Source of the DNA: Propionibacteriales bacterium
Lineage (GTDB): Bacteria; Actinomycetota; Actinomycetes; Propionibacteriales; Nocardioidaceae
Length of the DNA: 33,297 nucleotides
Assembly: GCA_009379735.1 (NCBI GenBank)
Contig: WHTB01000015.1
Coordinates: 1-33,297, forward strand
Direction of reading: 5' to 3'
Positions 1,872-22,235 of the stretch are shown here, in pieces. Each line of letters starts with the position of its first letter. Position 1 is the first letter of the stretch. The notes beneath the pieces are model-generated. The model saw only the letters and a program-made list of their open reading frames with translations. It was not told the origin of the DNA and searched no databases. The position numbers and the translations under genes were made by a program.

Positions 1872-1877
1872 ACAGCT

Positions 1878-2638
<761 letters not shown>

Positions 2639-2639
<1 letters not shown>

Positions 2640-5594: not shown

Positions 5595-6484
5595 TGGCGC
5601 TCGTCGCGATCGCGTCGGCGAAGGGGTCGCCCGGCGCGACCACCACGGCGCTCGTGATGGGCGCCCTGTGGCCCCGCCCCGTGGTCGTGGCCGAGTGTGA
5701 CACTGCGGGCAGCGACATCGCCGTCCGCATGCCGGCCGCCGACGGCGGCGTCCTCGACGGTGACCGTGGCCTGGTGACGCTGGCCGCCGCCGGCCGCCGC
5801 GGCCTGCGCTCCGACCTGGTCCTGAGCAACACCCAGCAGGCTCTCGGCGGGCTCGACGTGCTGCTCGGCCTGCGTACGCCGGAGCAGGCGTCCGGCGTCG
5901 GCACGATGTGGCCGCAGTTCGGCGCCGTGTTCGACGGGCTCGAGGGCTACGACGTGATCGCCGACCTCGGCCGCTGCGGTGCACAGACGCCGCAGAACGC
6001 CCTGATGCGCTCGGCCCGCCTGCTGATCATGGTCTGCCGGGCGGAGCCGTCGAGCGTCGTCCACCTGCGCGAGCGGATCAGCGTGCTGGCCGAGGACCTC
6101 GACCCGGCGAACCCGCACGGCACCCCGATCGGCGTGATGGTGGTCGCCGACCCGAAGAAGCGGCGCGACGCGGTGCGTCAGGTCTTCCAGGCAGTCGAAC
6201 AGATGGACGTCCCGGTGGCCTACCGCTGGCACCTGGCCTACGACCCGGAGGGCGCCGCGGTGTTCTCCGGGTCCGTCCGCAACCGTCCCGACCGCTCGGT
6301 CCTGGTGCGCTCGGCGCGTGCGGTGACCGGCGAGGTCGCCCGGGTCGTCGCACCGTTCTTCGTCGAGGCGCAGGTCGGTGCGTACAGCTCCGCGCCGCCC
6401 GAGGACGACGGCGAGCCGGACGGCCTGGCGCCACAGCCGTGGCAGCAGCCGGCCACGAACTCGGGGGCGACGCATGCTGACTGA
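5594..6484 (+). CDS. cpaE: CpaE/TadZ-like ParA/MinD-family protein of the Tad pilus
   Basis: 296 residues. The N-terminus ALVAIASAKGSPGATTTAL is a deviant Walker A of the MinD/ParA type in which the signature Lys10 is kept, but the P-loop lysine is replaced by alanine (GAT), as is usual in CpaE/TadZ proteins. VVVAECD (about residues 30-36) and DVIADLGRCG (about 119-128) correspond to the other nucleotide-site strands. The last 30 residues are Pro/Gln-rich and probably flexible. CpaE/TadZ proteins place the pilus machine in the cell. There is no receiver domain in front, unlike Caulobacter CpaE. The frame overlaps tadA by 11 bases. Confidence 0.82.
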   Translation: MALVAIASAKGSPGATTTALVMGALWPRPVVVAECDTAGSDIAVRMPAADGGVLDGDRGLVTLAAAGRRGLRSDLVLSNTQQALGGLDVLLGLRTPEQASGVGTMWPQFGAVFDGLEGYDVIADLGRCGAQTPQNALMRSARLLIMVCRAEPSSVVHLRERISVLAEDLDPANPHGTPIGVMVVADPKKRRDAVRQVFQAVEQMDVPVAYRWHLAYDPEGAAVFSGSVRNRPDRSVLVRSARAVTGEVARVVAPFFVEAQVGAYSSAPPEDDGEPDGLAPQPWQQPATNSGATHAD

Positions 6485-7784
6485 CCACGATCTCGTCCGC
6501 CAGCTGCGGGTGGGGGTCGCCGAGCGGCTCAACGAGCAGCGTCGTCGCGACCAGCTGAACGGCTACCCCGCTATGACCGTCGAGGACGAGCGCGAGTTCG
6601 CCCGTTCGCTGATCGTGCAGGTGCTGGAGGACCACGCCCGCACCGAGATCGCCTCGGGCCGTACGCCGCCGGACTCCGACGACGAGGCCCTGCTCGCCAC
6701 GGCGGTGCACTCGGCCCTGTTCGGTGTCGGCCGCCTGCAGCCGCTGATCGACGACCCCGAGGTCGAGAACATCGACATCAACGGGTGCGACCAGGTGTTC
6801 GTCCAGTACGGCGACGGCCGGGAGGTGGTGCACCCGCCGGTGGCCGAGTCCGACGAGGAGCTCGTCGACCTGATCCAGGTGCTGGCGGCCCATGCCGGCC
6901 TGTCCAGCCGCCCGTTCGACGCCGCCAACCCGCAGCTCGACCTGCGGCTCCCGGACGGCTCGCGGCTGTCGGCCGTGATGAGCGTCTGCGCGCGGCCCTC
7001 GGTGTCGGTCCGTAAGGCCCGGATGGGCAAGGTCTTCCTGACCGACCTGGTCGCCAACGCGACGATGAGCCAAGACATCGCGTCGTTCCTGCGAGCCGCG
7101 GTCAGTGCCCGCAAGAACATCATGATCGCCGGTGCGACCAACTCCGGTAAGACCACGATCCTGCGGGCGCTGGCCAACGAGATCCCACCGTCGGAGCGGC
7201 TGATCACGGTCGAGCGGGCGCTGGAGCTGGGTCTCGGCGAGTTCCCGGACCTGCACCCCAACGTCGTCGCGTTCGAGGAGCGGCTGGCCAACTCGGAGGG
7301 CAAGGGCGGGGTCGGCATGTCCGGCCTCGTCCGCCGCTCGTTGCGGATGAACCCCAGCCGGGTGATCGTCGGCGAGGTGCTCGGTGACGAGATCGTCACG
7401 ATGCTGAACGCGATGAGCCAGGGCAACGACGGCTCGCTGTCGACCATCCACGCCAACTCGTCGATCGAGGTGTTCAACCGGATCGGCACCTACGCCATCC
7501 AGTCGGTCGAGCGGCTGCCGCTCGAGGCCACGCACATGCTGATCGCCGGCGCCCTCGACTTCGTCGTGTTCATGCGCAAGCGCAACGACTACAGCGAGGG
7601 CGGCGGCCTGAGCCGTGTCGTCGAGAGCGTCCGCGAGGTCACCGGTGTCGACGAGCGGGTGCTGTCGAGCGAGGTCTTCGCCGCGGCTACGGACGGACGC
7701 GCCGTGCCGCACGCGCCGATCGCCTGTATCGCCGAGCTCGAGCAGGCCGGCTACCGGCCGGCCGTGCACGGGGCGTGGGCCTGA
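6474..7784 (+). CDS. tadA: Tad pilus assembly ATPase TadA/CpaF
   Basis: 436 residues, a secretion ATPase of the GspE/VirB11 superfamily and the motor of the pilus. Walker A is GATNSGKTT (residues 220-228, Lys226). The Walker B region is PSRVIVGEVLGDE with Glu301. The His box is GSLSTIHANS with His326. The 'Asp box', usually IEDTxEL in CpaF, reads ITVERALELGL here (244-254), so the usual ED pair is ER. The N-terminal helical part (1-100) ends with DPEVENIDINGCDQVFV, typical of CpaF. The start at 6474 lies within the end of the preceding gene; the stop overlaps tadB as ATGA. Confidence 0.94.
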   Translation: MLTDHDLVRQLRVGVAERLNEQRRRDQLNGYPAMTVEDEREFARSLIVQVLEDHARTEIASGRTPPDSDDEALLATAVHSALFGVGRLQPLIDDPEVENIDINGCDQVFVQYGDGREVVHPPVAESDEELVDLIQVLAAHAGLSSRPFDAANPQLDLRLPDGSRLSAVMSVCARPSVSVRKARMGKVFLTDLVANATMSQDIASFLRAAVSARKNIMIAGATNSGKTTILRALANEIPPSERLITVERALELGLGEFPDLHPNVVAFEERLANSEGKGGVGMSGLVRRSLRMNPSRVIVGEVLGDEIVTMLNAMSQGNDGSLSTIHANSSIEVFNRIGTYAIQSVERLPLEATHMLIAGALDFVVFMRKRNDYSEGGGLSRVVESVREVTGVDERVLSSEVFAAATDGRAVPHAPIACIAELEQAGYRPAVHGAWA

Positions 7785-8692
7785 TGGGTCTGTCCCTCCC
7801 GTTGCTGCTGGTGCTGCTGCTCGGGGCGTTGGTCGGTGGCGGCGTCCTGCTGCTGGTGATGGCGATCCGCGGCGTCGAGCCGCGTGACCCGGCCGAGCCC
7901 AGCTTCTTGAGCTCGCACCAGCGGGCGCTGTCCGAGTCCGGCCGGCGGCTGCTGACCGGGGTGGCGGTCGGCCTGCTGGTCCTGGTCGTCACGGAGTGGA
8001 TCGTGATGGCGTTCGCCCTCGGCTTCCTGGTGGCGATGTGGACCCGCATCTTCGGCGGCGCGTCGAGCGAGCGGGCCCAGATCGCCCGGCTCGACGGGCT
8101 GGCGTCCTGGACCGAGTCGCTGCGCGACACGATCGCGGGTGCGGTCGGCCTCGAGCAGGCGATCCCCGCCACCGCGGTGAACGCGTCCCCGACGATCAAG
8201 CCCCAGCTCAACCTGCTGGTCGACCGGCTGCGCATCCGTGAGCCACTGCATGACGCGCTGATGAAGTTCGCCGACGACCTCGACGACCCGTCGGCCGACC
8301 TGATCGTCGCCGCGCTCATCCTTAACGCCCGGCTGCGCGGTCCCGGCCTCCGTGAGGTGCTGTCGTCGCTGTCGGAGTCGGCCCGTGAGGAGCTCGACCT
8401 GCGCCGCAAGGTGGAGGCGCAGCGCAAGAGCACCCGCCGCAGCGTCCAGGTCGTCGTCGCGATCACGCTCGGGGTGGCCGGCATGCTGGCGATCTTCAAC
8501 GGCGAGTACGTCGAGCCGTACAACTCGTTCACCGGCCAGATCGTGCTGGCCGTCTGCGTGGCCATCTTCGCCGGTGGCATCTTGTGGCTGCGCAAGCTGG
8601 CCGGCATCGAGGTGCCTGAGCGTTTCCTGGTGCAGAGCCGCAAGCAGCGCAGCCAGACCACCGCCGGCGACGTCGTGGAGGTTCGACGATGA
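7784..8692 (+). CDS. tadB: Tad pilus inner-membrane platform protein TadB
   Basis: 302 residues with the T2SSF fold used by pilus platform proteins. Membrane segments are seen at about residues 5-27 and 56-85, with a pair near the C-terminus (about 215-265). Between them lies the cytoplasmic helical domain, beginning LDGLASWTESLRDTIAGAVGLEQAI and including DDLDDPSADLIVAALILN. TadB and TadC together form the platform that TadA acts on. The start is the ATG overlapping the tadA stop (ATGA); a GTG nine bases earlier is in frame but less likely. The end again overlaps tadC as ATGA. Confidence 0.88.
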   Translation: MGLSLPLLLVLLLGALVGGGVLLLVMAIRGVEPRDPAEPSFLSSHQRALSESGRRLLTGVAVGLLVLVVTEWIVMAFALGFLVAMWTRIFGGASSERAQIARLDGLASWTESLRDTIAGAVGLEQAIPATAVNASPTIKPQLNLLVDRLRIREPLHDALMKFADDLDDPSADLIVAALILNARLRGPGLREVLSSLSESAREELDLRRKVEAQRKSTRRSVQVVVAITLGVAGMLAIFNGEYVEPYNSFTGQIVLAVCVAIFAGGILWLRKLAGIEVPERFLVQSRKQRSQTTAGDVVEVRR

Positions 8693-9591
8693 CTCTCGCC
8701 ATCCTGTGCGGCGCCGTCGCCGGTTTCGGGCTGTTCCTGATCGCCCGCCAGTTCGTCCGCAGCGACCCGGGCGTCGCGGCCACGCTGGCCCGCATCGACG
8801 CCGGCCGCCGCGGCCAGCTGGCGGCGACCCGCAGCGCCGTCGACCGGCCGTCGCTGGAGTCGCTGGAACGGCTGCAGAGCGGCCTGGGCGCCCGGCTGGA
8901 GGTCGAGGTCCTCGCCCGGGGCTGGAAGTTCACCAACATCCGGGCCGACCTCGCCGTACTCAACCGGCCGTTCGCCAACCATCTGGCGACGAAGGTGCTG
9001 CTGTCGGTCGCGGGGTTCGTCGTGCTGCCGACGATGATGACGCTGCTCGGCTACGCGACGCTGTCCAGTGTCATCGTCGGCCTGTTCGCCGGCGCGATCC
9101 TGTTCCTGGTACCGGACGCCCGGGTGAAGTCCCGGGCCGAGTCCAGGCGGCGCGACTTCCGGCATGTGATGGGCGCGTTCCTCGACCTGGTCGCGATGAA
9201 CCTCTCCGGTGGACGAGGTCTGCCGGAGGCGCTGATGACCGCCTCCACGATCGGTGACCACTGGGCGATGGCCCGGATCCGGCAGGCGCTGAGCAACGCC
9301 CGGCTGGTCGGCATCACCCCGTGGGAGGGCATCGCCCGGCTCGGCAAGGAGCTCGACATCGAGGAGCTGCGCGACCTCGCCTCCGCGCTCGCGCTGGCCG
9401 GCGACGAGGGAGCCACGATCCGCAGCTCGCTGATGGCGAGGGCCGAGAGCCTGCGCCGCAAGGAGCTGGCGATGGTCGAGGGTGCAGCGGGCGAGCGCTC
9501 GCAGTCGATGCTGGTCGCCCAGCTGATGCTGTGTGGTGCGTTCCTGTTGTTCCTGGCGTACCCCGCAACCACCAAGATCATGGGGACATGA
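8689..9591 (+). CDS. tadC: Tad pilus inner-membrane platform protein TadC
   Basis: 300 residues, the second T2SSF-type platform protein. There is an N-terminal membrane segment (about 3-20), a paired hydrophobic region (about 100-145) and a last one at the C-terminus (MLVAQLMLCGAFLLFLAY). The cytoplasmic domain contains GAFLDLVAMNLSGGRGLPEAL, a clear TadC/T2SSF mark. It starts in an ATGA overlap with tadB. Its stop is followed by a 132-base gap before the pilin gene, the first real break in the operon. Confidence 0.88.
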   Translation: MTLAILCGAVAGFGLFLIARQFVRSDPGVAATLARIDAGRRGQLAATRSAVDRPSLESLERLQSGLGARLEVEVLARGWKFTNIRADLAVLNRPFANHLATKVLLSVAGFVVLPTMMTLLGYATLSSVIVGLFAGAILFLVPDARVKSRAESRRRDFRHVMGAFLDLVAMNLSGGRGLPEALMTASTIGDHWAMARIRQALSNARLVGITPWEGIARLGKELDIEELRDLASALALAGDEGATIRSSLMARAESLRRKELAMVEGAAGERSQSMLVAQLMLCGAFLLFLAYPATTKIMGT

Positions 9592-9596
9592 AAATA

Positions 9597-9637: not shown

Positions 9638-9723
9638 TGCCCCCTAGGCGTCGCAGCATGGCCACGGGCTGTGACGTGGCGCCCAGCAGAGCCGGTAGAG
9701 ACCAGACACGAGGGGACTCGACG

Positions 9724-9948
9724 ATGAATAACGAGCTGATGATGGTGCGCACCCTGTGGTGGGTCGCGCGCGGTCGGATGATCGAGGCCAAGCGCACCGA
9801 GGGCAAGAGCCGGGGGGCGTCTGCTCTCGAGTGGGCGATCATCTCGGCGATCCTGGTCACCGCTGCCGTGCTGATCGGCAACGCCGTCTACAACCGGGTG
9901 CAGAAGTCCTCGGGCAACCTGGAGAAGTGCACCAACGCCGTCTGCTGA
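9724..9948 (+). CDS. flp: Flp-type major pilin precursor (Tad pilin)
   Basis: 74 residues. A basic leader of 31 residues ends in KSRG, followed by ASALEWAIISAILVTAAVL: cleavage between Gly31 and Ala32 would leave a 43-residue mature pilin with Glu at +5 (Glu36), as prepilin peptidases of this class need. The Flp motif is normally G/xxxxEY; here the residue after Glu is Trp. The mature C-terminus ends CTNAVC, two cysteines that could form a disulfide. The ATG at 9724 has a strong ribosome site (GAGGGG, 9710-9715). No prepilin peptidase (TadV/CpaA) is in the window. Confidence 0.93.
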   Translation: MNNELMMVRTLWWVARGRMIEAKRTEGKSRGASALEWAIISAILVTAAVLIGNAVYNRVQKSSGNLEKCTNAVC

Positions 9949-9973
9949 GGCAGGCGTGCGTGGGTGAGGAACG

Positions 9974-10393
9974 ATGAGCGTGCGGGGGAGACGCACCCAA
10001 CGCGGCGCGAGCGCGATCGAGCTATCGATCGTGGCGCCGTTCTTCCTGATGCTCATCTTCAGCCTGATCCAGGGCTCGCTGTGGCTGTACGCGCGCAATG
10101 TCGCACTGTCGGCGGCCCGCGAAGGCGCCTCAGACGCGCGGCTGTTCCAACCCGACGAGTACACCGCCGGCGTCGACGCCGGGCTGAAGCAGCAGCTGGT
10201 CAGCTACGTCGCAACGGTCGGCAACAACACGCTGGTCGATACCAAGCCGGAGATCGACTACAACCCCGGCGGCAGCGGCCGGGTGACCGTCACGGTCACC
10301 GGGCACGCGATCGGCCTGACGCCGTTCGACCTCGAGGTGCGACGCTCGGTCGAGATGGAGATCGAGCAGTTCGAGCCGGACCTGGGCCAATGA
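9974..10393 (+). CDS. tadE: TadE-like pseudopilin
   Basis: 139 residues. A short basic leader ending QRG is followed by ASAIELSIVAPFFLMLIF: predicted cleavage is Gly11/Ala12 with Glu16 at +5, then a single hydrophobic helix (about 12-34). The rest is an external domain with LYARNVALSAAREGASDARLF, which matches TadE-like proteins. TadE and TadF are minor pilins needed for pilus assembly. It lies 25 bases after the Flp stop, with GAGGA (9966-9970) as ribosome site, and overlaps the next gene as ATGA. Confidence 0.87.
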   Translation: MSVRGRRTQRGASAIELSIVAPFFLMLIFSLIQGSLWLYARNVALSAAREGASDARLFQPDEYTAGVDAGLKQQLVSYVATVGNNTLVDTKPEIDYNPGGSGRVTVTVTGHAIGLTPFDLEVRRSVEMEIEQFEPDLGQ

Positions 10394-10854
10394 GACGACT
10401 CGACCTGGCCCGGCACGGGCGCAGACGATGCGAGGGCGGCACGCTCTCGCTGGAGCTGTCGATCATCGCGCCGCTGCTGCTGATGATCGGGGTGCTGTTC
10501 ATCGCGTACGGCCGCTACGGCCAGACCACTGGCCTGCTCGAGCAGGGCGTGCGTGACTCGGCCCGCTCGGCGACCCAGACCCGGAGCGAGCAGGACATGG
10601 CCACGGCGATCGAGCGGGTCCGGAAGAAGACCGCGGCGGAGCTGCCGCAGTCGTGCGGTGACTCGCTGAAGGTCTCCGACGTGAAGCTCGAGGGCGGGGG
10701 GAGCACCGACGCGTTCGCCCGCGGGACGTTCGTCACCGTGACGTACTCCTGCCAGCTGACGATGTCCGACCTGCTGCTGCCCGGGTGGTCGGACCGTACG
10801 CTGACCCGGTCGTTCACCAGCCGGCTGGATCCGAACCGAGGGGTGTACCAATGA
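10390..10854 (+). CDS. tadF: TadE/TadF-like pseudopilin (second)
   Basis: 154 residues. The basic N-terminus ends in CEGG, then TLSLELSIIAPLLLMIGVLF: predicted prepilin site Gly17/Thr18 with Glu22 at +5 and one hydrophobic helix. The external part has the TadE-like LLEQGVRDSARSAT and two further cysteines (about residues 89 and 120) that may form a disulfide. It starts at the ATG overlapping the tadE stop; a longer upstream open frame lies over tadE and is rejected. It overlaps the TadG-like gene as ATGA. TadE and TadF cannot be told apart reliably by eye, so the symbol is by position. Confidence 0.8.
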   Translation: MRRLDLARHGRRRCEGGTLSLELSIIAPLLLMIGVLFIAYGRYGQTTGLLEQGVRDSARSATQTRSEQDMATAIERVRKKTAAELPQSCGDSLKVSDVKLEGGGSTDAFARGTFVTVTYSCQLTMSDLLLPGWSDRTLTRSFTSRLDPNRGVYQ

Positions 10855-11993
10855 TGTTCTGGAGCGGTCGCGTCGCCCGCGGCGAGCACGGCTCGCTGGC
10901 GCCGGCAACCGCGGCGATGATCGTCATGCTCTTCCTGCTCGGTGGGCTGATCATCGACGGCGCTCGGGCGCTGGGGGCGCGTGCCCGCGCCGCGTCGTAC
11001 GCCGAGGAGGGTGCGCGGATCGCCGGCCAGGGCGTGTCGTTCGACGAGGGCAACTTCGACGTCGACCCGGAGGCCGTCAACGACAACGCCGCCGGCTACT
11101 GCGCCCGGATCGCCGCCAACGACAAGACCGTCGACGACTGCAGCTCGGCGATCGAGAACGGCGAGATCGTGTTCACGGTCAACGTCACGATCTCGAAGGG
11201 CGTGCTCGGCCTCGCCACACCGGGCGACGGCGACATGACGTTCCCGGGCACCGGACGGGCGATCGCGGAGTTCGGCATCTTCGAGGCCGACTCCGTCTCG
11301 GACAACCAGCTCGACCTCGCTCCGGACTTCGAGGACGGCAACCAGATCGACCTGGACCTGCCCGAGGGGGTCGATGAGGACGGCTGTCCGCGGGGCGAGA
11401 CGTGGGAGGAGGCGCCCGCGACGTTCACCCCGAAGCCGTTCCGGTTCCTCCGCGAGGACCAGGTCGGCAACATGCCGGTGCACTGCCCGCGGCCGCCGGT
11501 GTGCGCCAACGAGGGTCAGCTGATCCCGTACTTCTTCCACTACTACTACCCCGACAAGATCCGCCAGCATGACCGGTGGGAGCCGCTGTTCATCCGCTGC
11601 CCCGTCGCCGAGAAGCTCATCTACGGCCCCTCGCCGGCCAACCCGGACTGCAGCAACGTGGACGGCACGCAGCGGCACCCATGCGGCCCGATCGAGGCGG
11701 CCGACTGCGACACCGGGCAGCAGGGCACCCAGTCGCCCCCGTGCGGTCCGAAGCCCGACCCGACCGACTGCGACCCAGATGAGAGCGGCACCCAGTCACC
11801 ACCGTGCGGCCCGGATCCGGACAAACCAGGCGACTGCGATCCCGACACCCCGACGAAGAACACCCCGCCGTGCGGACCTGACCCCGACCCGATGAAGTGT
11901 GACGGCACGTCCGACCGGCAGAGGCCACCGTGCACGCCGAAGCCGGAGGAGACCAAGACTCCGGCGGCCGAGCCGGCCGGGGCGAGCGGATGA
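10851..11993 (+). CDS. tadG: TadG-like pilus protein with Cys/Pro-rich repeat tail
   Basis: 380 residues. The N-terminus GEHGSLAPATAAMIVMLFLL fits the Tad N-terminal (TadG-like) helix, with Gly14 at the cleavage position but no Glu at +5, so it may stay uncleaved. RARAASYAEEGARIAGQG follows, as in TadG-like proteins. Residues about 150-262 carry several cysteines. From about 264 to 362 there are five short units with two cysteines each (C-x10-11-C, ending mostly PPCGP), followed by a Thr/Pro/Ala tail. Such a tail would be extended and exposed outside the cell. The start is the ATG overlapping tadF; the stop overlaps the lipoprotein gene as ATGA. Confidence 0.8.
   Translation: MMFWSGRVARGEHGSLAPATAAMIVMLFLLGGLIIDGARALGARARAASYAEEGARIAGQGVSFDEGNFDVDPEAVNDNAAGYCARIAANDKTVDDCSSAIENGEIVFTVNVTISKGVLGLATPGDGDMTFPGTGRAIAEFGIFEADSVSDNQLDLAPDFEDGNQIDLDLPEGVDEDGCPRGETWEEAPATFTPKPFRFLREDQVGNMPVHCPRPPVCANEGQLIPYFFHYYYPDKIRQHDRWEPLFIRCPVAEKLIYGPSPANPDCSNVDGTQRHPCGPIEAADCDTGQQGTQSPPCGPKPDPTDCDPDESGTQSPPCGPDPDKPGDCDPDTPTKNTPPCGPDPDPMKCDGTSDRQRPPCTPKPEETKTPAAEPAGASG
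11640..11939 (+). repeat. Five-unit Cys/Pro repeat inside the TadG-like gene
   Basis: The coding sequence holds five imperfect units of about 21 codons, each with the pattern D/K-C-D/S ... G-T-Q-x-P-P-C-G-P-x-P. The first cysteine is Cys267 and the last is Cys361. Units 2 and 3 share GTQSPPCGP exactly; units 1 and 5 are the most diverged. This is a protein-level tandem repeat, with codon drift showing it is not a recent DNA duplication. Confidence 0.8.
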
Positions 11994-12598
11994 GGCGCCT
12001 CACGACCACGCTGAGCGGCGTGCTGCTGGCGGCCGGGCTCGGGGCTGGGCTGGTGGCCGGCTGCGGCGGCGACAGCTCCAGCGGTGCGGCGATCACCGGC
12101 AAGTCCACGGTCGAGAAGGGCGACGAGCCGGCCGGCGGCGATAGCCCGCCGGCGTCGAAGGCGGCGGAGCCGACGACCCAGGCCGTCGGCCTCGGTCCGT
12201 ACGGCGAGAAGCCGGAGGCGAAGGCGGCCGCGACGTTCTACCAGGAGCTGTGGCGGTCGTACCAGACCGGCGCGGTGACCCCGGGAATCACTAAAGTGGC
12301 CACCGAGAACGCGCTCGCCTTCTTCCGGCCGCAGGTCGAGGGGCTGAAGAAGAAGGGCCACACGATCAACAACCTGTCAGCAGCGAGGGTGGTTAAGGTC
12401 AAGTCCGGAGTGGTGACGGTGTGCATGGCGTCGGCGTCGTACCAGACGTTCGACCGGGAGTCGGGCGACCCGATCGACGAGCCCGAGTCGGGGTTCACCG
12501 CCTACACCGTCCGGATGACGAAGGAGAAGTCCGCGTGGAAGGTCGACAACGTGTCCGGCATCTCGGGAATCCAGTGCGGAGAGGCGGCCACCCAATGA
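11990..12598 (+). CDS. Predicted lipoprotein coupled to the Tad operon
   Basis: 202 residues. A lipoprotein signal peptide is clear: basic MRRL, hydrophobic helix, then lipobox LVAGC with Cys25. A Ser/Gly/Asp-rich linker (26-65) leads to a domain of about 130 residues with AKAAATFYQELWRSYQTG and a C-terminal half that looks like a small alpha/beta (NTF2- or SnoaL-like) fold; that fold guess is weak. Two cysteines (about 145 and 197) could pair. The start lies in an ATGA overlap with the TadG-like gene, and the stop overlaps the next gene the same way, so it is made with the pilus. No known function; a role in anchoring or assembly is inference. Confidence 0.8.
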   Translation: MRRLTTTLSGVLLAAGLGAGLVAGCGGDSSSGAAITGKSTVEKGDEPAGGDSPPASKAAEPTTQAVGLGPYGEKPEAKAAATFYQELWRSYQTGAVTPGITKVATENALAFFRPQVEGLKKKGHTINNLSAARVVKVKSGVVTVCMASASYQTFDRESGDPIDEPESGFTAYTVRMTKEKSAWKVDNVSGISGIQCGEAATQ

Positions 12599-13728
12599 AT
12601 GCCACGGTGCCTGCCAACACGACTGGGCGCATGATCCGCCGCGTCCTGCTCGTCCTCGGCGCGGCCATCGCCCTGCTCGGCACCGGGTCGGTCAACCCGG
12701 CCGCCGCCGACTGCGGCCTGGGCGGCTCCTGCAGCGGGGTGCACACGCAGGCGGTCAACACCGGCTACTACTCCCTCGGTGGCACCAGCTGCGGCGCCTA
12801 CGTGTCCGCGAGCGGGTTCGGCGGCACCTGCGCGGCACCCGGCACCTACAGCGGCAACTTCCCGACGCCGCCGACCTGGCAGGAGATCATCAAGATGTCG
12901 CCCGGTCGGACCTTCGACCCGTGCCGCCACCAGCGCATCGACAAGGGGTTCAACAAGCCGGAGCCACCGGCCGACCCGGAGAAGCGGGCCAAGGGCGACG
13001 AGTGGCTGATCCGGATCTGCATGAAGAACTACGACCTGGGCACGACCGACGGTGGCGACAACCTCGAGCTCGTCTTCGACCGGGTGTGGGCGTTCTACGA
13101 GGGCGAGCCGGGCTGGATGGACTACCTGTGGGGCGACGTCGCCGGGTCACAGAGCACGTTCCCGTTCCCGGTGATCGGCTACGGCCCGCATGCGTACCCC
13201 GTGGTCGGCACTCCCACCTTCTTCTGGGCGACCTTCAACGAGCTCAACCCGGACGGCTCCCTGAACGAGCTGACGACCGACGAGGTCGTGCCGCAGTACC
13301 AGGTCCCGCTCGGCACCGACACGAACAAGGGCCTGGATGTCGTGCTCAACGCCCGGCTGGTCCGCTTCAACGTCAACACCGGTGAAGACGAGGGCTCCGC
13401 GGACTGCAGTGACGTGAACGACTGGACCCGGCCGTTCAAGACCGGCCAGGACACCGTCGAGCAGTTCGCCAAGAAGACCAAGTGCCAGTGGACCTACACC
13501 CACTCCAGCGCCGACCAGGGCTTCGGCACCTACACGGTGACCGCGCGGGCCCGTTGGCAGATCGGCTGGAGCTATGTGGACGCCAACGGGCAGACCACGA
13601 CCCAGATGAAGCCGCTGTCCAGCAAGGGCTTCTCCGAGGTGACCACGGAGTCGAGATACAACATCCCGGTCGGTGAGGTGCAGGTGCGCGGCTGCGTGCT
13701 GCAGAACCAGTGCACCCGGCCCGACTAG
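12595..13728 (+). CDS. Secreted Cys-containing protein of unknown function, end of Tad operon
   Basis: 377 residues from the ATG overlapping the lipoprotein stop. A second ATG at 12631 would give a shorter, more typical signal peptide: MIRRVLLVLGAAIALLGTG, with probable cleavage after NPAAA before DCGLGG. The mature protein begins Gly/Cys/Ser-rich (three cysteines in the first 30 residues), has a charged middle (PEKRAKGDEWLIRICMKNYD) and a beta-rich second half with VTARARWQIGWSYVDANG. It ends in GCVLQNQC. I do not recognise a family. Position, coupling and signal peptide suggest an extracellular partner of the pilus. The operon ends here, with a hairpin after the stop. Confidence 0.78.
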   Translation: MNATVPANTTGRMIRRVLLVLGAAIALLGTGSVNPAAADCGLGGSCSGVHTQAVNTGYYSLGGTSCGAYVSASGFGGTCAAPGTYSGNFPTPPTWQEIIKMSPGRTFDPCRHQRIDKGFNKPEPPADPEKRAKGDEWLIRICMKNYDLGTTDGGDNLELVFDRVWAFYEGEPGWMDYLWGDVAGSQSTFPFPVIGYGPHAYPVVGTPTFFWATFNELNPDGSLNELTTDEVVPQYQVPLGTDTNKGLDVVLNARLVRFNVNTGEDEGSADCSDVNDWTRPFKTGQDTVEQFAKKTKCQWTYTHSSADQGFGTYTVTARARWQIGWSYVDANGQTTTQMKPLSSKGFSEVTTESRYNIPVGEVQVRGCVLQNQCTRPD

Positions 13729-13736
13729 GGCACCGG

Positions 13737-13774
13737 CCAGGGGACCGCACAACCACCCGGTGGTGACCCCCTGG
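13737..13774 (+). terminator. Hairpin after the Tad operon
   Basis: Eight bases after the stop, the arms CCAGGGG (13737-13743) and CCCCTGG (13768-13774) enclose an inner stem ACCACC (13752-13757) / GGTGGT (13759-13764). There is no T-run, which is common in high-GC actinobacteria. It could end the Tad transcript before the LysM gene. Confidence 0.55.
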
Positions 13775-13815
13775 CGAGGCAGAATGGGGTGTCCCCGTCT
13801 AGGAGGAGTCTGATC

Positions 13816-16623
13816 GTGGTGAGCCCAACCCAGCCTCGAGCTGCCCGGCTGCCGTCGTACGCGCCGAAGATGGTTCGCCGCTCCGGTGAGCGGCTGCGGG
13901 GCCTGGTCGCCGTGGCGGCGATCCTGGCACTGGTGTTCGCCGTCCCGTGGGCGTTGTGGACGTTCGGCGGCGCGCCGTGGCCGACCAGTGCCCCGAGCAT
14001 GGACTGGCTGACCCAGCCGATCGGCTCCGACGTCGTCCTCAGGGTGCTGTTCTTCGTGCTGTGGGTCGCGTGGCTGCACTTCGTGATCTGCCTGGTGGTC
14101 GAGTTCTTCGCCGAGCGGCGCGGCCACGGCATGACCGCGCAGGTGCCCGGCGGGGGAGTCGGCACCCAGTCGCTGGCCCGCCGCCTCGTCGCCGCCGCCC
14201 TCCTGCTGGTCGGCTCCGCGGCCGTGACCGTACCCGCCGCCAGCGCGGCGACCGGCTCGACCACGAACGAGACGGTGTCCGCGTCGGTGGAGACTAAGGC
14301 GTCGGCTCATGCCGAGTCACGCACGTCCGACGACACGGTCGCCAAGAAGGCCCAGGCCAAGCCGAAGGTCGCCACCGGCGGGCGCATCACCTACACCGTG
14401 CAGCCTCCGCACGGGCGGCACTACGACAGCCTGTGGGACATCTCCGAGCGGTTCCTCGGTGACGGCCGCCGTTACAAGGAGGTCTTCGACCTCAACAAGG
14501 GCAAGCTGCAGGCCGACGGACGCACGCTGCGTGAGGCCGACCTCATCCACCCGGGCTGGGTGCTGACGATGCCCGACGACGCCAAGGGCGCGAGCCTCAC
14601 CATCCGCGAGGAGCAGAGCCGGCCGGGCGGCAGTGGCCGGAGCGGCAGCGCGAGCGGTGGCGAGGGGACCGCCACGGCCGACGGCGGGGCGAGCGACGGC
14701 GGCGCCGGTGGTGCCGGGCTGGGCGCCGGCGGAGGTGCCGGGAGCCAGGTCGGCGGGGGCGCCGGGGCCGCACCACAGGTCGCCGAGAACAACGTCCTTG
14801 TGTACGGCGTCGGCGGTGCCCTGGTGGCAGCCGGGCTGATGGCCGGACTGCTGCGTCGCCGCGGCTGGAACGGCGGCGGCGAGGACGCCCTGACGCCCGA
14901 GGACGAGACCCCGCTGCGGCTGGCCGCCGACGAGGGCCAGGCCCGGTTCGTCGACCGGGCGCTGCGTGGTCTGGCGCACGCGATGCACGAGTCGGGCCGG
15001 CCGATGCCGTCGGTCTACGCCGCCTATGTCGACGACGACGTGTTCACGCTGGCGATCTCGCCGGCGGTCGCCGACGCCCCGCCGGAGGGCTGGTACAGCG
15101 ACGACGACGGCCGGATGTGGACCGTCGACCGGGCCACCGCCGAGGCCCTGGAGGTGCCCCGCGAGGTCCTGGCGCCGTACCCCGGGCTGGTCACGGTCGG
15201 CACGCTCGACGACGGCACGCTCGTCCTTCTCGACCTGGAGACCGCGCCGGGCCTGGTGTCGCTGGGCGGCGACCTCGAGACGGCCCGCGAGGTCGGTGCG
15301 TCGATGGCCGTCGAGCTGGCCACGAACCTGTGGTCCGACGACGTGTCGGTCACCCTGGTCGGCTTCGGCGACGACCTGACCGAGCTGGCTCCGCACCGTA
15401 CCCGCCGGGTCGACAACCTCGACGACGTGCTCGTCGACCTGGAGCAGCACCGGTCGCGCCAGCACAACGTGTGCGTGCGCAGCGGGCTCGACTCGGTGAT
15501 CCGTGGTCGCCAGATGCGCGCCGACCGTGAGCTGTGGAAGCCGCAGTTCCTGGTGCTGAGCGGCGTCCCCAGCCAGGAGCACCTGGCCCGGCTGGGCGAG
15601 CTGGCCGCCGACCCGCGGCACGCGATCGGCGTCGTCACGATCGGCGACGTGGTCAGTGCGCCGTGGCGGATGGTGGTCGGGGCCGACGGTCGGCTCACCA
15701 ACAACCTGCTGGGCCTCGAGGTGACCGCCCAGCGGCTCGGCGTCGCGGCGTACACGAAGGTGGTCGACCTCTTCCGCCGGGCCGACGCCGGCGCCAGGAT
15801 CGACCCGAACGACCTCGAGCCGCTGCCGACGCCCGGTCTTGCCCCGGCGATGCTGGAGCTCGACATCGCCGCGCCGGTCTCGGTGCAGCTGTTCGGTCCG
15901 GTCGTGGTCGACGCACCGGGGCCTATCGACGACGAGCGCCGCGACCTCGCGACCGAGATCGTCGCGTACGTCGGGATGCACCCCGATGGAGTCCACCCCA
16001 GCGTGCTCGACTCGGCCATCTGGCCGCGCGGCGTGACCGACGAGGTCCGCAACGCCGCCATCGGCCACGTGCAGCGCTGGCTCGGCGAGAACGCCGCCGG
16101 CGAGCCGCGTCTCGACCAGGACGAGCAGGGCCGCTGGCGCCTCGACTTGACGTCGGTGCGCGTCGACTGGCACGTGTTCCAAGCCCTGCTCGACCGCGCG
16201 CACCGCGGCGGCGACCCGACCAACGACCTCGCGCTCGCGCTGTCGATGGTGCAAGGGCCGGGGTTCGACCAGCTGCCTGCGCACCGCTACTCATGGTTGG
16301 CCCGCTCGACCCACCTGCGTGACATCAACGTGACCGTCGTCGACGCCACCCGGCAGCTCGCCGACCTGGCCGCCCGCGCCCAGGACCCGGTGTTCGCGCG
16401 GGAGGCGCTGCGCACCGGCCTGCTGGTGGTCCCGGACTGCGAGGAGCTGTGGCGTCAGGGGCTGCGGCTCGCGGCCCGATTCGGCAGCACCGAGGAGACG
16501 GCCGAGGTGGCCGGCGACATGTACGCCGCGATCGCCGAGCACGGGTCACCGCGGGGCGCCTCGGCCGAGACCGACGCGTTGGTCGACGAGCTGCTGCCGG
16601 GCTACCGTCGCCGGGTCGCCTGA
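13816..16623 (+). CDS. Membrane-anchored LysM protein with cytoplasmic SARP/BTAD-like region
   Basis: 935 residues. Order: membrane helices at about 30-50, 74-97 and 124-145; a Thr/Ser linker; a LysM-like domain (about 190-253, YTVQPP...LWDISERFLGD...LIHPGWVLTMP); a Gly/Ser linker (270-320); a fourth helix (327-345) followed by LLRRRG; a middle domain (360-680); and from about 685 a winged-helix and BTAD-like region (VQLFGPVVVDAPG, SVLDSAIWPRGVTDEVRNA, then helical repeats). Positive charges put LysM outside and the SARP-like part inside. The GTG at 13816 follows AGGAGGAG (13801-13808) by seven bases; an earlier GTG at 13789 precedes this ribosome site. It probably senses peptidoglycan near the pilus; DNA binding is unproven. 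Confidence 0.82.
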   Translation: MVSPTQPRAARLPSYAPKMVRRSGERLRGLVAVAAILALVFAVPWALWTFGGAPWPTSAPSMDWLTQPIGSDVVLRVLFFVLWVAWLHFVICLVVEFFAERRGHGMTAQVPGGGVGTQSLARRLVAAALLLVGSAAVTVPAASAATGSTTNETVSASVETKASAHAESRTSDDTVAKKAQAKPKVATGGRITYTVQPPHGRHYDSLWDISERFLGDGRRYKEVFDLNKGKLQADGRTLREADLIHPGWVLTMPDDAKGASLTIREEQSRPGGSGRSGSASGGEGTATADGGASDGGAGGAGLGAGGGAGSQVGGGAGAAPQVAENNVLVYGVGGALVAAGLMAGLLRRRGWNGGGEDALTPEDETPLRLAADEGQARFVDRALRGLAHAMHESGRPMPSVYAAYVDDDVFTLAISPAVADAPPEGWYSDDDGRMWTVDRATAEALEVPREVLAPYPGLVTVGTLDDGTLVLLDLETAPGLVSLGGDLETAREVGASMAVELATNLWSDDVSVTLVGFGDDLTELAPHRTRRVDNLDDVLVDLEQHRSRQHNVCVRSGLDSVIRGRQMRADRELWKPQFLVLSGVPSQEHLARLGELAADPRHAIGVVTIGDVVSAPWRMVVGADGRLTNNLLGLEVTAQRLGVAAYTKVVDLFRRADAGARIDPNDLEPLPTPGLAPAMLELDIAAPVSVQLFGPVVVDAPGPIDDERRDLATEIVAYVGMHPDGVHPSVLDSAIWPRGVTDEVRNAAIGHVQRWLGENAAGEPRLDQDEQGRWRLDLTSVRVDWHVFQALLDRAHRGGDPTNDLALALSMVQGPGFDQLPAHRYSWLARSTHLRDINVTVVDATRQLADLAARAQDPVFAREALRTGLLVVPDCEELWRQGLRLAARFGSTEETAEVAGDMYAAIAEHGSPRGASAETDALVDELLPGYRRRVA

Positions 16624-16628
16624 CCGCG

Positions 16629-17351: not shown

Positions 17352-20300
17352 GTGGTCAGGCTGAGCTTCACGGTCGTCGATGCGGCGAACGACGACTCCG
17401 CGAACGTTGTGATGGAGGCGGACGAGGACACCACGATCGGCGTGGTGTCGCACCACCTCGCCTCGCTGTTCCGTGACGTCGACCCGGATGGCGTGGCGTC
17501 CGCCCGGGGGAGCGGCGAGCAGCCCGGTGGTGCCCGACTGCTCGAGCTGGTCACCGAGCGCCGTACGCCGAACGGCACGGCACTGTACGTCGCGGGCATC
17601 CGGCTCGACCCGTCGCTGACCGTGGCCGAGTCGCCGCTGGTCGACGGCTGCATCGTCGGGGTCGCCGACGACGTCGGTGGCATGGGCGACAGCGGCGAGG
17701 ACCTGCTGCAGATCAGGATCGCCGGCGGCCCGACCGCAGGTGCGGTGCACAACATCGGCCCGGGCTCGCACGTGGTCGGGTCCGAGTCGCCGGCAACGCT
17801 GCGTCTCGACGACGCGATGATCCCGGCCGAGGCGCTGCTGGTCGGGGTGTCGGTCGACGGGTCGTGCGAGGTGACACCCCTCGGCGACGTCGTCGTCGGC
17901 ATCGAGGGCGAGCAGATCGAAGGCGCCACGCCGTGGCACGAGACCGAGCAGCTGACTGTGGGCCAGCACCTGCTCGAGTGGCACTTCCCGGCTCCGCCCG
18001 ACGCGGCCCTGCAGCCGTCCGACGACGGGGTGGGTCTGGACTACAACCGGCCGCCGCGGCTGCTGCCGCCGGAGGCCGAGACAGACTTCAAGCTGCCGAG
18101 CTTCCCGAAGGAGCCGGACAAGAAGCCGCTGTCATGGGCCGCGTCGATGATGCCGGTGGTGATGGCGGTGACGATGGCCCTGGTGATGCAGAACCCGCGC
18201 TACATGCTGATCGGCCTGTTCAGCCCGGTGATGATGTTCGCCAACTTCAAGGCGGACAAGAAGCACGGCAAGGCCGCCTACAAGCAGCAGGTCGCCGACT
18301 ACAAGGACCGCAAGAAGCAGATCGAGCAGGACGCGCACGACGCGCTGCAGCTCGACCGTGAGCTGCGTCGCAAGGACTTCCCCGACGCGGCGACCACGCT
18401 GCTGATGGCGGTCGGCCCGTCGAGCCGGCTGTGGGAGCGGCGCCGCACCGACCCCGACTACCTGGTGCTGCGCTTCGGCACCGCCGAGATGCCGTCGGAC
18501 GTGACGCTCGACGACCCCGAGCAGCTCGAGCACCGCCGCAAGATCACCTGGACGATCCCCAACGCACCGGTGACGATCCCAATCAACGCGGCCGGCGTGG
18601 TCGGCATCGCCGGTCGCGGCGACCTGCCGCGTTCGCTGGCCCGTTGGGCCGTTGCGCAGATCACCGCGCTGCACTCGCCGTTCGACGTGCAGGTCGTCGT
18701 GCTCACCGACCAGTCCGGCAAGGACGCCTGGGAGTGGACCCGCTGGCTGCCGCACCTGCGCCCGTCGATGGGCCAGGACACCGTGACGCTGCTCGGCACC
18801 GACGCCGACTCGGTGTCGCGCCGGGTCGCCGAGCTGCAGGCGATCATCGGGGCACGCCGCACCGCCCGTGGCGCCACCCAGGCGGACGCCGTCCCGCCCC
18901 CGGGTGGGGAGATCGTCGTCATCTTGGACGGTGCACGCCGGCTCCGCTCGCTGCCGGGTGTCATCGAGCTGCTGAAGGAGGGTGCCGAGTACGGCGTCTT
19001 CACCATCTGCCTCGACTCCGAGGAGCGGATGCTGCCGGAGGAGTGCCAGGCGGTGGTGATCGAGGAGCACGACGGCGTACGTATCCAGCGCCAGCGCACC
19101 GACGTGGTCCGCGGCGCCCACCCCGACGTGGTCAGCGTCGCCTGGACGGAGCGGCTGGCCCGGCACCTGTCACCGATCCGTGACGTCAGCGGCGGCGAGG
19201 AGGGTGCCAACCTCCCGACGTCGTCCCGGTTGCTCGACGTGCTCCACCTCGACCCGCCCACCGGCGACGCCATCAGCGCCCGGTGGGGCCTGGGCGGCCG
19301 GTCCACCGAGGCCGTCATCGGCGACACGTACGACGGTCCGTTCGCCCTCGACATCCGCCGCGACGGTCCGCACGGCCTGATCGCCGGCACGACCGGGGCC
19401 GGCAAGTCCGAGCTGCTGCAGACCATCGTGGCGGCGCTGGCGGTCGCGAACCGGCCCGACTCGATGACGTTCGTGCTGGTCGACTACAAGGGCGGCAGCG
19501 CGTTCAAGGACTGCGTCGACCTGCCCCACACGGTCGGCATGGTGACCGACCTCGACACCCACCTGGTGGAGCGGGCGCTGGAGTCCCTCGGCGCCGAGCT
19601 GAAGCGGCGCGAGCACATCCTCGCCGAGTCCGGCGCCAAGGACATCGAGGACTACGTCGACCTGCTCGCCAAGCGGCCGGACCTGTCGCCGGTGCCACGG
19701 CTGGCGATCGTCATCGACGAGTTCGCGTCGATGGCCCGCGAGCTGCCCGACTTCGTGTCGGGCCTGGTCAACATCGCCCAGCGCGGTCGGTCGCTCGGCA
19801 TCCACCTGATCCTCGCCACCCAGCGGCCCTCGGGTGTGGTGTCGCCGGAGATCCGGGCCAACACGAACCTCCGGATCGCACTGCGGGTCACCGACCCGGC
19901 GGAGAGCTCCGACGTCATCGACTCGCCCGAAGCCGCTCGCATCCTCAAGTCGACACCCGGTCGTGCGTACGCCCGGCTCGGTCACGCCTCGCTCGTGCCG
20001 TTCCAGGCCGGTCGTGTCGGCGGGCGCGCGCCGGGTGTGAAGGCACAGGTGGTCGTGCCGCCGTGGATCACCGACCTCGACTGGACCCAGCTGGGCCAGT
20101 CGGCGCCGATGCGGCCGAAGGAGAAGGAGGACAAGGGCGACGTCGAGATCACCGACCTGAAGGTGCTGGTCGACGCGATCCGGGGCGCGAACGAGCGGAT
20201 GGCGATCCCGCCGCAGCACAGTCCGTGGCTGGAGGCGTTGCCCGACCTGCTGCTGCTCGACGACGTGCCCGACGGCCAGGCCAAGACCACCCTGCCGAGC

Positions 20301-21836
20301 ATCCCGTTCGGCATCGAGGACATCCCCGGCGACCAGGCCCAGGTGCCTGCCGTCGTCGACCTGGCCGACGCGAGCCACGTCTACTTCGTCGGCGCGCCGC
20401 GCAGCGGCCGCTCGCAGATCCTGCGCACGATCGCCGTGTCGGCCGCACAGCGGATGTCACCGGCCGACCTGCACATCCATGCGATCGACTGCGGCAACGG
20501 CGCGCTGCTGGCCCTGTCGTCGCTCCCGCACTGCGGCGTGGTGGCCGGCCGCACCCAGACCGAGCGGGCGACCCGGATGCTGCACCGGCTCAACACCGAG
20601 GTGGTCCGGCGCCAGGAGCTGCTGGCCGGTGGCGGGTATGCCGACATCACCGAGCAGCGGCAGGGTCAGTCCGACGAGGCACTGCCCCACATCATGGTCC
20701 TGCTCGACCGCTGGGAAGGCTTCACGACCGGGATCGGCGAGCTCGACCACGGCGCGTACATCGACCTGGTGCAGCGGCTGATGCGGGAGGGCTCCAGCGT
20801 CGGGGTGCACTTCCTGGTCACTGGTGACCGCACCCTGTCGTCCTCGCGGATGGGTCAGCTCACCGAGGACAAGTTCGCGATGCGGCTGGTGGACAAGGGC
20901 GACTACTCGATCTTCGGCATCAACCCGCGCAAGGTCCCGGACGAGATGGCGGCCGGCCGGATGTTCCGGGCCGAGAAGCTCACCGAGGTCCAGGTCGCCG
21001 TACTCGGCGAGGACCTGTCGGGGCAGGGCCAGGCCGCCCGGATCTCCGCGGTCGGCGCGGAGCTGACCGAGCGCTACGCCGACCTGCCACGGTCGGCGCG
21101 GCCGTTCCGGGTCGAGCTGCTGCCCAAGACGATCAGCTACGCCGACGCGTTGCAGCGGCTCGACATCGACCAGCCAGCGCCGATGTGGGCGATGCTCGGG
21201 GTCGGGGGCGACGACGTCTCGGCGCTCGGGCCGGACCTCGGGACGAGTGCCTGCTCGTTCGTGATCGGCGGCGCCCCCAAGTCGGGGCGGAGCACTGCCC
21301 TGCTGACGCTGGGCGTGTCGTTCCTGTCCCGCGGCGCCCACCTGATCTTGGTCACGCCGCGCTCCTCGCCGCTGCGGACGCTCGCCGAGCACCCGGGTGT
21401 GGTCCGCTCGTACGAGGGCACCGCGATCCCAGAGCTGGAGTTCGTGTCGGTGGTGAAGAAGGCGCCGACGCCGTGCGTGCTGATGATCGACGACGCCGAG
21501 ACGCTCAAGGACGCCGACATCGGCACGACCCTGCGCAACCTGCTGAAGACCGGCGGCGACACCGGACACGCCGTGGTGGCGGCCGGTGCCGGGGAGGACC
21601 TGGCGGGCGGGTTCAGCGGCTGGATCCCCGACATGCGCCGTGGCCGTCTCGGTGCGCTGCTGTCGCCGCAGAACGCCGCCGAGGCGGACATCCTCGGGGT
21701 ACGGATGAGCCGCAGCTCGTTCGGCGGGACTGTCATCCCCGGCCGGGCGCTGGTGCATCTCGGCGACGGTCAGGTGATCACGGCCCAGATCCCGCTGACC
21801 ACGCTCGGCGACGCCCCCACCCCGGCGCCCGACTGA
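17352..21836 (+). CDS. essC: EssC-like type VII secretion ATPase (FtsK/SpoIIIE family)
   Basis: 1494 residues, the length of Firmicute EssC/YukBA rather than of mycobacterial EccC (about 1,330-1,390). Order: an N-terminal small domain (1-100), an FHA-like domain (about 118-215), two membrane helices (about 260-300), a charged helix, a linker domain, then three FtsK/SpoIIIE ATPase modules. Module 1 is canonical: GTTGAGKS (679-686, Lys685) and LAIVIDEF (Asp789, Glu790). In module 2 the P-loop is GAPRSGRS (1014-1021) and in module 3 GAPKSGRS (1307-1314), both with Arg for the catalytic Lys, so only module 1 should hydrolyse ATP fully, as known for EccC/EssC. The protein drives export of WXG100-type substrates across the membrane. 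GTG start after GGGAGG. No EccB, EccD, EccE or mycosin is in the window. Confidence 0.9.
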   Translation: MVRLSFTVVDAANDDSANVVMEADEDTTIGVVSHHLASLFRDVDPDGVASARGSGEQPGGARLLELVTERRTPNGTALYVAGIRLDPSLTVAESPLVDGCIVGVADDVGGMGDSGEDLLQIRIAGGPTAGAVHNIGPGSHVVGSESPATLRLDDAMIPAEALLVGVSVDGSCEVTPLGDVVVGIEGEQIEGATPWHETEQLTVGQHLLEWHFPAPPDAALQPSDDGVGLDYNRPPRLLPPEAETDFKLPSFPKEPDKKPLSWAASMMPVVMAVTMALVMQNPRYMLIGLFSPVMMFANFKADKKHGKAAYKQQVADYKDRKKQIEQDAHDALQLDRELRRKDFPDAATTLLMAVGPSSRLWERRRTDPDYLVLRFGTAEMPSDVTLDDPEQLEHRRKITWTIPNAPVTIPINAAGVVGIAGRGDLPRSLARWAVAQITALHSPFDVQVVVLTDQSGKDAWEWTRWLPHLRPSMGQDTVTLLGTDADSVSRRVAELQAIIGARRTARGATQADAVPPPGGEIVVILDGARRLRSLPGVIELLKEGAEYGVFTICLDSEERMLPEECQAVVIEEHDGVRIQRQRTDVVRGAHPDVVSVAWTERLARHLSPIRDVSGGEEGANLPTSSRLLDVLHLDPPTGDAISARWGLGGRSTEAVIGDTYDGPFALDIRRDGPHGLIAGTTGAGKSELLQTIVAALAVANRPDSMTFVLVDYKGGSAFKDCVDLPHTVGMVTDLDTHLVERALESLGAELKRREHILAESGAKDIEDYVDLLAKRPDLSPVPRLAIVIDEFASMARELPDFVSGLVNIAQRGRSLGIHLILATQRPSGVVSPEIRANTNLRIALRVTDPAESSDVIDSPEAARILKSTPGRAYARLGHASLVPFQAGRVGGRAPGVKAQVVVPPWITDLDWTQLGQSAPMRPKEKEDKGDVEITDLKVLVDAIRGANERMAIPPQHSPWLEALPDLLLLDDVPDGQAKTTLPSIPFGIEDIPGDQAQVPAVVDLADASHVYFVGAPRSGRSQILRTIAVSAAQRMSPADLHIHAIDCGNGALLALSSLPHCGVVAGRTQTERATRMLHRLNTEVVRRQELLAGGGYADITEQRQGQSDEALPHIMVLLDRWEGFTTGIGELDHGAYIDLVQRLMREGSSVGVHFLVTGDRTLSSSRMGQLTEDKFAMRLVDKGDYSIFGINPRKVPDEMAAGRMFRAEKLTEVQVAVLGEDLSGQGQAARISAVGAELTERYADLPRSARPFRVELLPKTISYADALQRLDIDQPAPMWAMLGVGGDDVSALGPDLGTSACSFVIGGAPKSGRSTALLTLGVSFLSRGAHLILVTPRSSPLRTLAEHPGVVRSYEGTAIPELEFVSVVKKAPTPCVLMIDDAETLKDADIGTTLRNLLKTGGDTGHAVVAAGAGEDLAGGFSGWIPDMRRGRLGALLSPQNAAEADILGVRMSRSSFGGTVIPGRALVHLGDGQVITAQIPLTTLGDAPTPAPD

Positions 21837-21938: not shown

Positions 21939-22235
21939 TCAGCCGGCGACCTGCGAGGCGAGCGAGTCGTCGAGGCCGGTGAAGCCCTCGACCGCGCCCT
22001 CGAGCCAGGTGGCCATGCCCTCCATGCCGTCCAGCGCCGTCTTGGTGCCGGTGGTGAACTGCTCGTAGGAGGTGTTGAACGCGCCCGACGAGGACGGCGT
22101 GATGAACTCGTTGTCGGTGGTGGCCTGGACCTTCGACTTCATCTGGTCCATCTGGTTGAGCAGGTCCTGGTGGGTGCTCTTCAGCTGGTTGGCCAGGTTG
22201 GTCATCTCGGACAGTTCAAGCTTCATGCTGGACAT
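21939..22235 (-). CDS. WXG100-like (ESAT-6 superfamily) protein, candidate type VII substrate
   Basis: 98 residues, the classic length, mostly helical: helix 1 about 5-40 (LSEMTNLANQLKSTHQDLL), a turn near DNEFITPSSSGAF, helix 2 about 52-85. The WxG of the turn is not present; Phe44 stands near its place and the only Trp is at 77. No signal peptide. There is a strong ribosome site, AAGGAG, seven bases before the ATG. The gene converges on essC, whose product is the likely motor for its export. A partner WXG100 gene was not found, so it may act as a homodimer. Family assignment is by length, helical pattern and context. Confidence 0.78.
   Translation of the reverse strand: MSSMKLELSEMTNLANQLKSTHQDLLNQMDQMKSKVQATTDNEFITPSSSGAFNTSYEQFTTGTKTALDGMEGMATWLEGAVEGFTGLDDSLASQVAG

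Follow-up and report, generated by a model that had tools for sequence, protein, structure and literature searches.

The window (the whole stretch of DNA that was analysed, 33,297 nucleotides of contig WHTB01000015.1 from a Propionibacteriales bacterium) carries a complete Tad (Flp) pilus operon at 4836-13728, in which genes for RcpC/SAF, TadZ, TadA, TadB, TadC, Flp, two TadE proteins and TadG are followed by two linked genes. The operon precedes an open reading frame, beginning at 13816, for a large membrane protein that is referred to here as the LysM-SARP protein, and genes related to type VII secretion (T7SS) lie beyond it:

4836..5594, + strand: RcpC/CpaB-like SAF-domain protein, assigned from position, annotated plasmid operons and relatives at the same place (no NCBIfam match)
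5594..6484, + strand: TadZ/CpaE-like protein, assigned from position and relatives at the same place (no NCBIfam match)
6474..7784, + strand: TadA ATPase
7775..8692, + strand: TadB
8689..9591, + strand: TadC
9724..9948, + strand: Flp-type pilin
9974..11993, + strand: TadE, TadE and TadG-like minor pilins
11990..13728, + strand: lipoprotein-like ORF of 202 aa and exported ORF of 377 aa, Tad-linked in close relatives (no Pfam match)
13816..16623, + strand: membrane protein of 935 aa with LysM, FtsK-like and SARP-like parts, encoded by the final gene of the Tad operon
17352..21836, + strand: EccC/EssC-type T7SS ATPase, 1494 aa, a recurrent Tad neighbour (best NCBIfam score EssC, below cut-off)
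21939..22235, - strand: small protein of the WXG100 family, 98 aa (scores under the curated cut-offs of Pfam and NCBIfam)

No prepilin peptidase was recognised in the Tad operon of the window (4836-17273); an A24 peptidase gene follows the LysM gene on a Microbacterium plasmid. A suf Fe-S cluster operon lies directly upstream of the Tad operon, at 328-4706, and suf genes also adjoin Tad/T7SS loci in two other genomes (G020 and G003); in another (G014) they adjoin an EccC/EccD-like pair whose contig has no Tad genes. The window's own genome holds a second TadA, 55% identical, at a contig end (G000:C168:17-1114, L174). Between the LysM-SARP and EccC genes is an acVLRF1-type release-factor-like gene (16623-17273). 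This gene and that for EccC were considered as parts of a core unit with the LysM-SARP gene and rejected, since the former is retained in only a few close relatives and linkage of the latter is not universal. A conserved non-coding block with the 12-nt core GCCATTACGGTA was seen upstream of RcpC and the tad operon in 15 Kribbella-type loci (L052-L102) and is a candidate promoter or operator; inspection of this block by eye showed no direct repeat of the 11-nt AfsR type.

The GTG at 13816 is preferred as the start codon of the LysM-SARP ORF because an RLP motif that is conserved in homologues precedes the next ATG, at 13870; comparison with the N-termini of homologues also backs the GTG. The protein is laid out as follows:

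13882..13968, + strand: TM1, aa 23-51, N-terminus predicted to be cytoplasmic (AF2 model, K+R counts)
14026..14118, + strand: TM2, aa 71-101 (AF2 model, K+R counts)
14164..14250, + strand: TM3, aa 117-137, then a signal-peptidase-I-like ASA|A site (AF2 model, K+R counts)
14377..14610, + strand: LysM domain, aa 188-265, predicted to lie outside (profile match, AF2 model, K+R counts)
14803..14862, + strand: TM4, aa 330-349, out to in (AF2 model, K+R counts)
14896..15789, + strand: FtsK/TcpA/EccC-like alpha/beta domain, aa 361-658, without Walker A in 57 of 57 homologues (AF2 model, Foldseek)
15871..16164, + strand: winged helix of the SARP/OmpR type, aa 686-783, acidic, with most DNA-contact residues replaced (Foldseek, hhalign)
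16165..16617, + strand: BTAD (TPR-like) helical domain, aa 784-934 (Pfam in homologues, AF2 model, Foldseek)

Searched as a single sequence, the window protein matched no Pfam family and had no useful match in the PDB. The LysM domain was matched by NCBIfam PRK11198 (E=2.7e-5, residues 203-254), and Pfam LysM matched 14 of 23 homologues, the best at E=1.2e-14. The full-length AF2 model shows the beta-alpha-alpha-beta LysM fold at residues 190-264 (pLDDT about 81-96), disorder at 137-185 and 267-328, and the fourth helix at 335-349. Fold, profile match and a predicted position outside the membrane are thus all those of a LysM domain. The mean number of lysines plus arginines per segment, taken over 53 homologues, was 5.2 in the N-terminal tail, 0.8 in loop 1, 3.4 in loop 2 and 5.2 after TM4, a distribution that places the N-terminus inside, the LysM domain outside and the C-terminus inside. 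The preliminary description had proposed, from four predicted helices and the positive-inside rule, that the LysM domain faces outwards and the winged helix inwards, and the AF2 model and the charge counts predict the same arrangement. An AxA motif follows helix 3 in most homologues (ASA|A at 142-145 in the window protein); it is a possible signal-peptidase site, at which, judging from the motif, the protein may be cleaved.

Between helix 4 and the SARP part lies a domain of ~300 residues that is absent from the preliminary description, which likewise does not mention the possible signal-peptidase site or the EccC and WXG100 genes downstream. An AF2 model of residues 345-935 was built from 57 sequences (mean pLDDT 92.4, pTM 0.85); the cytoplasmic domains are folded at high model confidence and contain many residues that are invariant across families. 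When compared with the PDB by Foldseek, residues 361-658 matched the ATPase folds of FtsK, TcpA and EccC (TcpA 6o1y, E=2.7e-7; EccCb1-D2 9jv8, TMt 0.57), and the middle domain therefore has the RecA-like fold of FtsK/HerA/EccC ATPases. Foldseek matches were assigned to residues 361-658 or 686-935 by length, secondary structure and sequence comparison, and both the FtsK/EccC-type and the SARP matches were obtained again with the full-length model. The Walker A P-loop (GxxxxGK[ST]) is absent from the middle domain in all 57 homologues, which marks it as ATPase-like but degenerate. No single EccC domain is put forward as its relative, as hhalign comparisons with the EccC DUF, D1, D2 and D3 domains were weak (best P 0.004-0.008).

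The remainder of the cytoplasmic half, residues 686-935, matched SARPs in Foldseek (EmbR 2fez, E=1.5e-6; AfsR 8hvr, E=3.9e-6, TMt 0.64), and hhalign of the winged helix and BTAD against AfsR/EmbR gave P=1e-8. Pfam BTAD was found in 6 of 23 homologues; when the cytoplasmic half was searched as a profile, TPR proteins were the sole matches with significant E-values. The region therefore has both the wHTH and BTAD folds and the sequence homology of AfsR/EmbR-type SARPs. A LysM domain and a C-terminal winged-helix, SARP/BTAD-like region had earlier been read into one membrane protein placed right after the pilus operon, and profiles, predicted structure and gene order all agree with that reading.

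The DNA-contacting surface of the SARP module was examined by alignment. AfsR contacts DNA through S46, Q48, W74, P79, R87, T88, S91, R92, R94 and K95 (PMC10936776), and the numbering of these contacts agrees with the AfsR sequence used in the alignment. R87, T88, S91, R92, R94 and K95 correspond to N, A, G, H, Q and R in the window protein, which consequently does not have the conserved recognition helix of SARPs, judged at positions 94, 92, 88 and 95. Position 94 is arginine in all 25 SARP controls (23 bona fide SARPs of related genomes, AfsR and EmbR) and R/K in 31 of 57 family members. Aspartate or glutamate occupies position 87 in 46 of the 57 and position 95 in 23. The window protein also lacks the neutral-to-basic DNA-binding domain of SARPs: the net charge of its wHTH is -6, and the average is -2.4 in the family and +2.7 in SARPs (family versus SARPs, Mann-Whitney p=1.3e-11, which is nominal as the sequences are related). 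The counterpart of the acidic AfsR loop in contact with sigma R4 reads WPRG and is shorter by three residues. A distant clade at the same operon position has a basic SRLR-type helix (e.g. RRSNMSRLRTWLG) and a wHTH net charge of -1 to +3.

Replacement of the contacts and the acidity of the wHTH make DNA binding in the window clade disfavoured, so far as alignment and model can indicate. Loss of the DNA-contacting surface had been named in advance as an outcome that would speak against a one-protein link from peptidoglycan to a transcription-factor-like domain, and such a loss is what the sequences and the model suggest for the window clade. The topology, the LysM domain, the SARP/BTAD homology and the Tad linkage on which that link was built have held; its regulatory reading is weakened in this clade.

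The linkage to Tad genes was surveyed in related genomes. Tad genes lay upstream of the LysM-SARP homologue, on the same strand, in all of the first 20 loci found by tblastn of the window genes. A scan of contigs, with one genome per species, then gave 462 confirmed relatives, and the best 80 of the 462, all from Actinobacteria, were kept; among these, TadA, TadB and TadC were upstream in 67 of the 72 loci with at least 8 kb of upstream DNA. At three of the other five loci (L066, L086 and L122) the Tad genes are farther upstream, with other genes between them and the LysM gene, and at two (L113 and L124) no TadA-C was found within the fetched DNA. Across 39 related genomes, the LysM-SARP protein was present in all 24 that have a TadA of at least 200 bits and absent from 13 of the 15 without TadA, the two exceptions being fragmented MAGs that hold pieces of it. 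The same gene order occurs in independently annotated plasmids from three orders (Rhodococcus pRHL2, Streptomyces nojiriensis and Microbacterium sp. No. 7), where the LysM gene is the last Tad structural gene and is annotated as a LysM peptidoglycan-binding domain-containing protein. Distances between LysM-SARP proteins correlated with those of TadA (r=0.96, 59 loci), TadC (r=0.96) and TadB (r=0.95), values to which species history contributes. The fixed position and the co-occurrence with tadZABC-flp-tadE are those of a Tad component. The proposed linkage of this architecture to Tad loci is thus near-absolute (67/72 loci, 24/24 genomes): the actinobacterial Tad operon almost always ends with a LysM / dead-motor-like / SARP-like membrane protein, which behaves as an obligate, co-evolving member of the operon.

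T7SS genes recur in the same neighbourhood. EccC matches were present in the fetched flanks of 35 of the 80 loci, with WXG100-like ORFs beside EccC in several. Among 198 class-sampled genomes, for which counts rest on TadA and EccC, 36 had a strong TadA locus, and EccC was within 25 kb of TadA in 26 of these (26 of 27 that were testable), although the genomes are phylogenetically clustered and the counts are not independent. The other ten comprise seven genomes of one family (f17) without a close EccC, two with EccC on another contig and one in which it is distant. EccC is found downstream on the same strand, often directly after the LysM gene, or upstream and divergent; in Kribbella-type second loci it is upstream on the same strand. 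An ESX-type EccC lies divergently upstream in G005, G008 and G020, where an EccD-like gene opens the run leading into tad, and EccD was confirmed by profile upstream of Tad in G008 (L164). Same-strand runs of an EccD-like gene, a MinD/ParA-like ATPase gene and a gene for a small protein into tad were seen at L164:14543-17549, L161:8812-11862 and L163:1867-4917. T7SS_signal or RHS-deaminase proteins are encoded before the LysM-SARP gene at Streptomyces loci (L122:2763-5658 and L124:2767-7305). The gene calls of the 33 kb window include no recognised member of the T7SSa (ESX) set EccB/EccD/EccE/MycP.

Parts of the LysM-SARP protein were also found alone. The second Tad locus of G008 (G008:C1:885321) has no LysM protein; it has a stand-alone SARP-like ORF of 227 aa (L173:12789-13472, hhalign P=3.8e-15). 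Directly before the EccC gene of G034 and G031 lies a gene for a membrane protein of 348-361 aa that matches the first half of the middle domain (P=6.9e-9); such half-domain proteins lie between a sigma-factor-like gene and EccC at L165:8269-9354 and L166:8124-9170. The window protein therefore unites modules that occur apart at other loci, one beside Tad and the other beside EccC.

To our knowledge, the means by which Gram-positive Tad pili, which have no outer-membrane secretin, are held in the thick wall has not been established. What was computed for the LysM-SARP protein is its domain order, predicted topology, Tad linkage, co-occurrence, correlated divergence, absence of Walker A and contact replacement. 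The explanation favoured here, to which about an even chance is given, is that actinobacterial Tad (Flp) pilus machines contain it as an obligate subunit, anchored to the wall, with a structural or docking role. The LysM domain would bind peptidoglycan next to the membrane and would fix the Tad machine in a thick wall, the cell having no outer-membrane secretin. The dead FtsK/EccC-type domain and the SARP-derived wHTH-BTAD would form a docking platform for Tad ATPases or scaffolds (TadA, TadZ), on which the neighbouring EccC ATPase, where present, may also dock; the cytoplasmic half would then serve docking and would not bind DNA as an activator. If cleaved after helix 3, the LysM-SARP protein could become single-pass, with the LysM domain outside and the docking domain inside. 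Several observations count against a Tad subunit. Operon membership and co-evolution would also fit a dedicated regulator travelling with the operon, the winged-helix fold is conserved and roughly half of the members keep R92/R94-type arginines, a distant clade has the basic SRLR-like helix, and the G008:C1:885321 Tad locus does without the LysM protein.

Several of these points would suit a membrane-tethered SARP regulator, comparable to ToxR or CadC, in which the LysM domain senses the state of the wall or pilus and the SARP module controls tad or other genes. SARP homology in both sequence and fold, the predicted LysM-out / SARP-in topology, the basic helix retained by the distant clade and the conserved GCCATTACGGTA block upstream of 15 Kribbella-type tad operons are consistent with such a function. 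It is nevertheless rather improbable, as the window clade has lost most of the DNA-contact residues and of the positive charge, the acidic sigma-contact loop is replaced, the Kribbella block shows by eye no repeat of the AfsR type, and obligate co-occurrence suits a machine part better than a switch. That the cytoplasmic half is a mere relic of a LysM wall protein, present in the operon by chance, would accord with the lack of a Pfam family in the window copy; high-confidence folded domains with many invariant residues across families, and near-absolute linkage on chromosomes and plasmids, make this very improbable indeed.

The T7SS genes allow another function, in which the dead FtsK/EccC-like domain pairs with EccC/EssC and the pilus and T7 secretion are built or fired together, for example in contact-dependent delivery. 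The proximity of EccC to TadA in 26 of 36 class-sampled genomes argues for such coupling, as do its several orientations, its frequent position right after the LysM gene, the WXG100 ORFs at several loci, the stand-alone middle domain that adjoins EccC, and the T7SS_signal and RHS-deaminase genes before the LysM gene in two Streptomyces loci. However, the seven f17 genomes have a Tad locus and lack a close EccC, other families contain many close EccC copies without Tad linkage, similarity of the middle domain to EccC domains is weak (hhalign P about 0.004-0.008), and the common neighbourhood may be ancestral synteny near suf genes; a coupling protein is accordingly thought unlikely. Equally tentative is a wider proposal, that the protein physically couples Tad with EccC/WXG100 so that wall contact or pilus state gates T7 secretion, with the distant clade perhaps remaining a tethered SARP regulator.

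As a wall-anchored Tad subunit, the LysM-SARP protein would be a strong candidate for both the missing wall anchor and the cytoplasmic hub of Gram-positive Tad pili. It occurs in several hundred genomes under the name of LysM protein, and it holds a transcription-factor fold that has apparently been stripped of its DNA surface inside a machine part. With FtsK, TcpA and EccC/EssC ATPases it shares a RecA/HerA-type alpha/beta fold (Foldseek), although it has one such domain, without Walker A in 57 members. With AfsR and EmbR it shares the fold, the order of wHTH then BTAD and detectable sequence homology; the module is, in contrast, C-terminal in a LysM membrane protein, with contacts mostly replaced, an acidic wHTH and an altered sigma-contact loop. 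CadC and ToxR have an OmpR-type winged helix that is tethered to the membrane and joined to an outside domain, with the wHTH N-terminal and one TM helix. The tethered winged helix and outside domain are common to the window protein, in which the wHTH is C-terminal, after four helices.

No functional study of the LysM-SARP protein was found in the open-licence literature. PAGK_2369, from the Tad locus of the P. acnes plasmid pIMPLE-HL096PA1, is given with Pfam LysM and BTAD, as a TadB homologue, in Table 2 of PMC3666418. It has LysM and BTAD inside a Tad locus in common with the window protein; in the available portion of that source it carries the TadB-homologue label, the middle domain is not reported and no interpretation was found. 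The T7SSg and T7SSh systems of Bacillota always have their ATPase and WXG100 genes next to Tad genes, and the meaning of this was left open by the authors (PMC11217815). The actinobacterial Tad-EccC-WXG100 neighbourhood extends that colocation, and its recurrence in several actinobacterial families bears on the question, which is testable in culturable actinobacteria such as Kribbella. Both cases share the adjacency of T7SS ATPase, WXG100 and Tad genes; the window case differs in belonging to Actinomycetota, in spanning several families and arrangements, in its EssC-scoring ATPase and in its LysM-SARP protein, which is not mentioned in PMC11217815.
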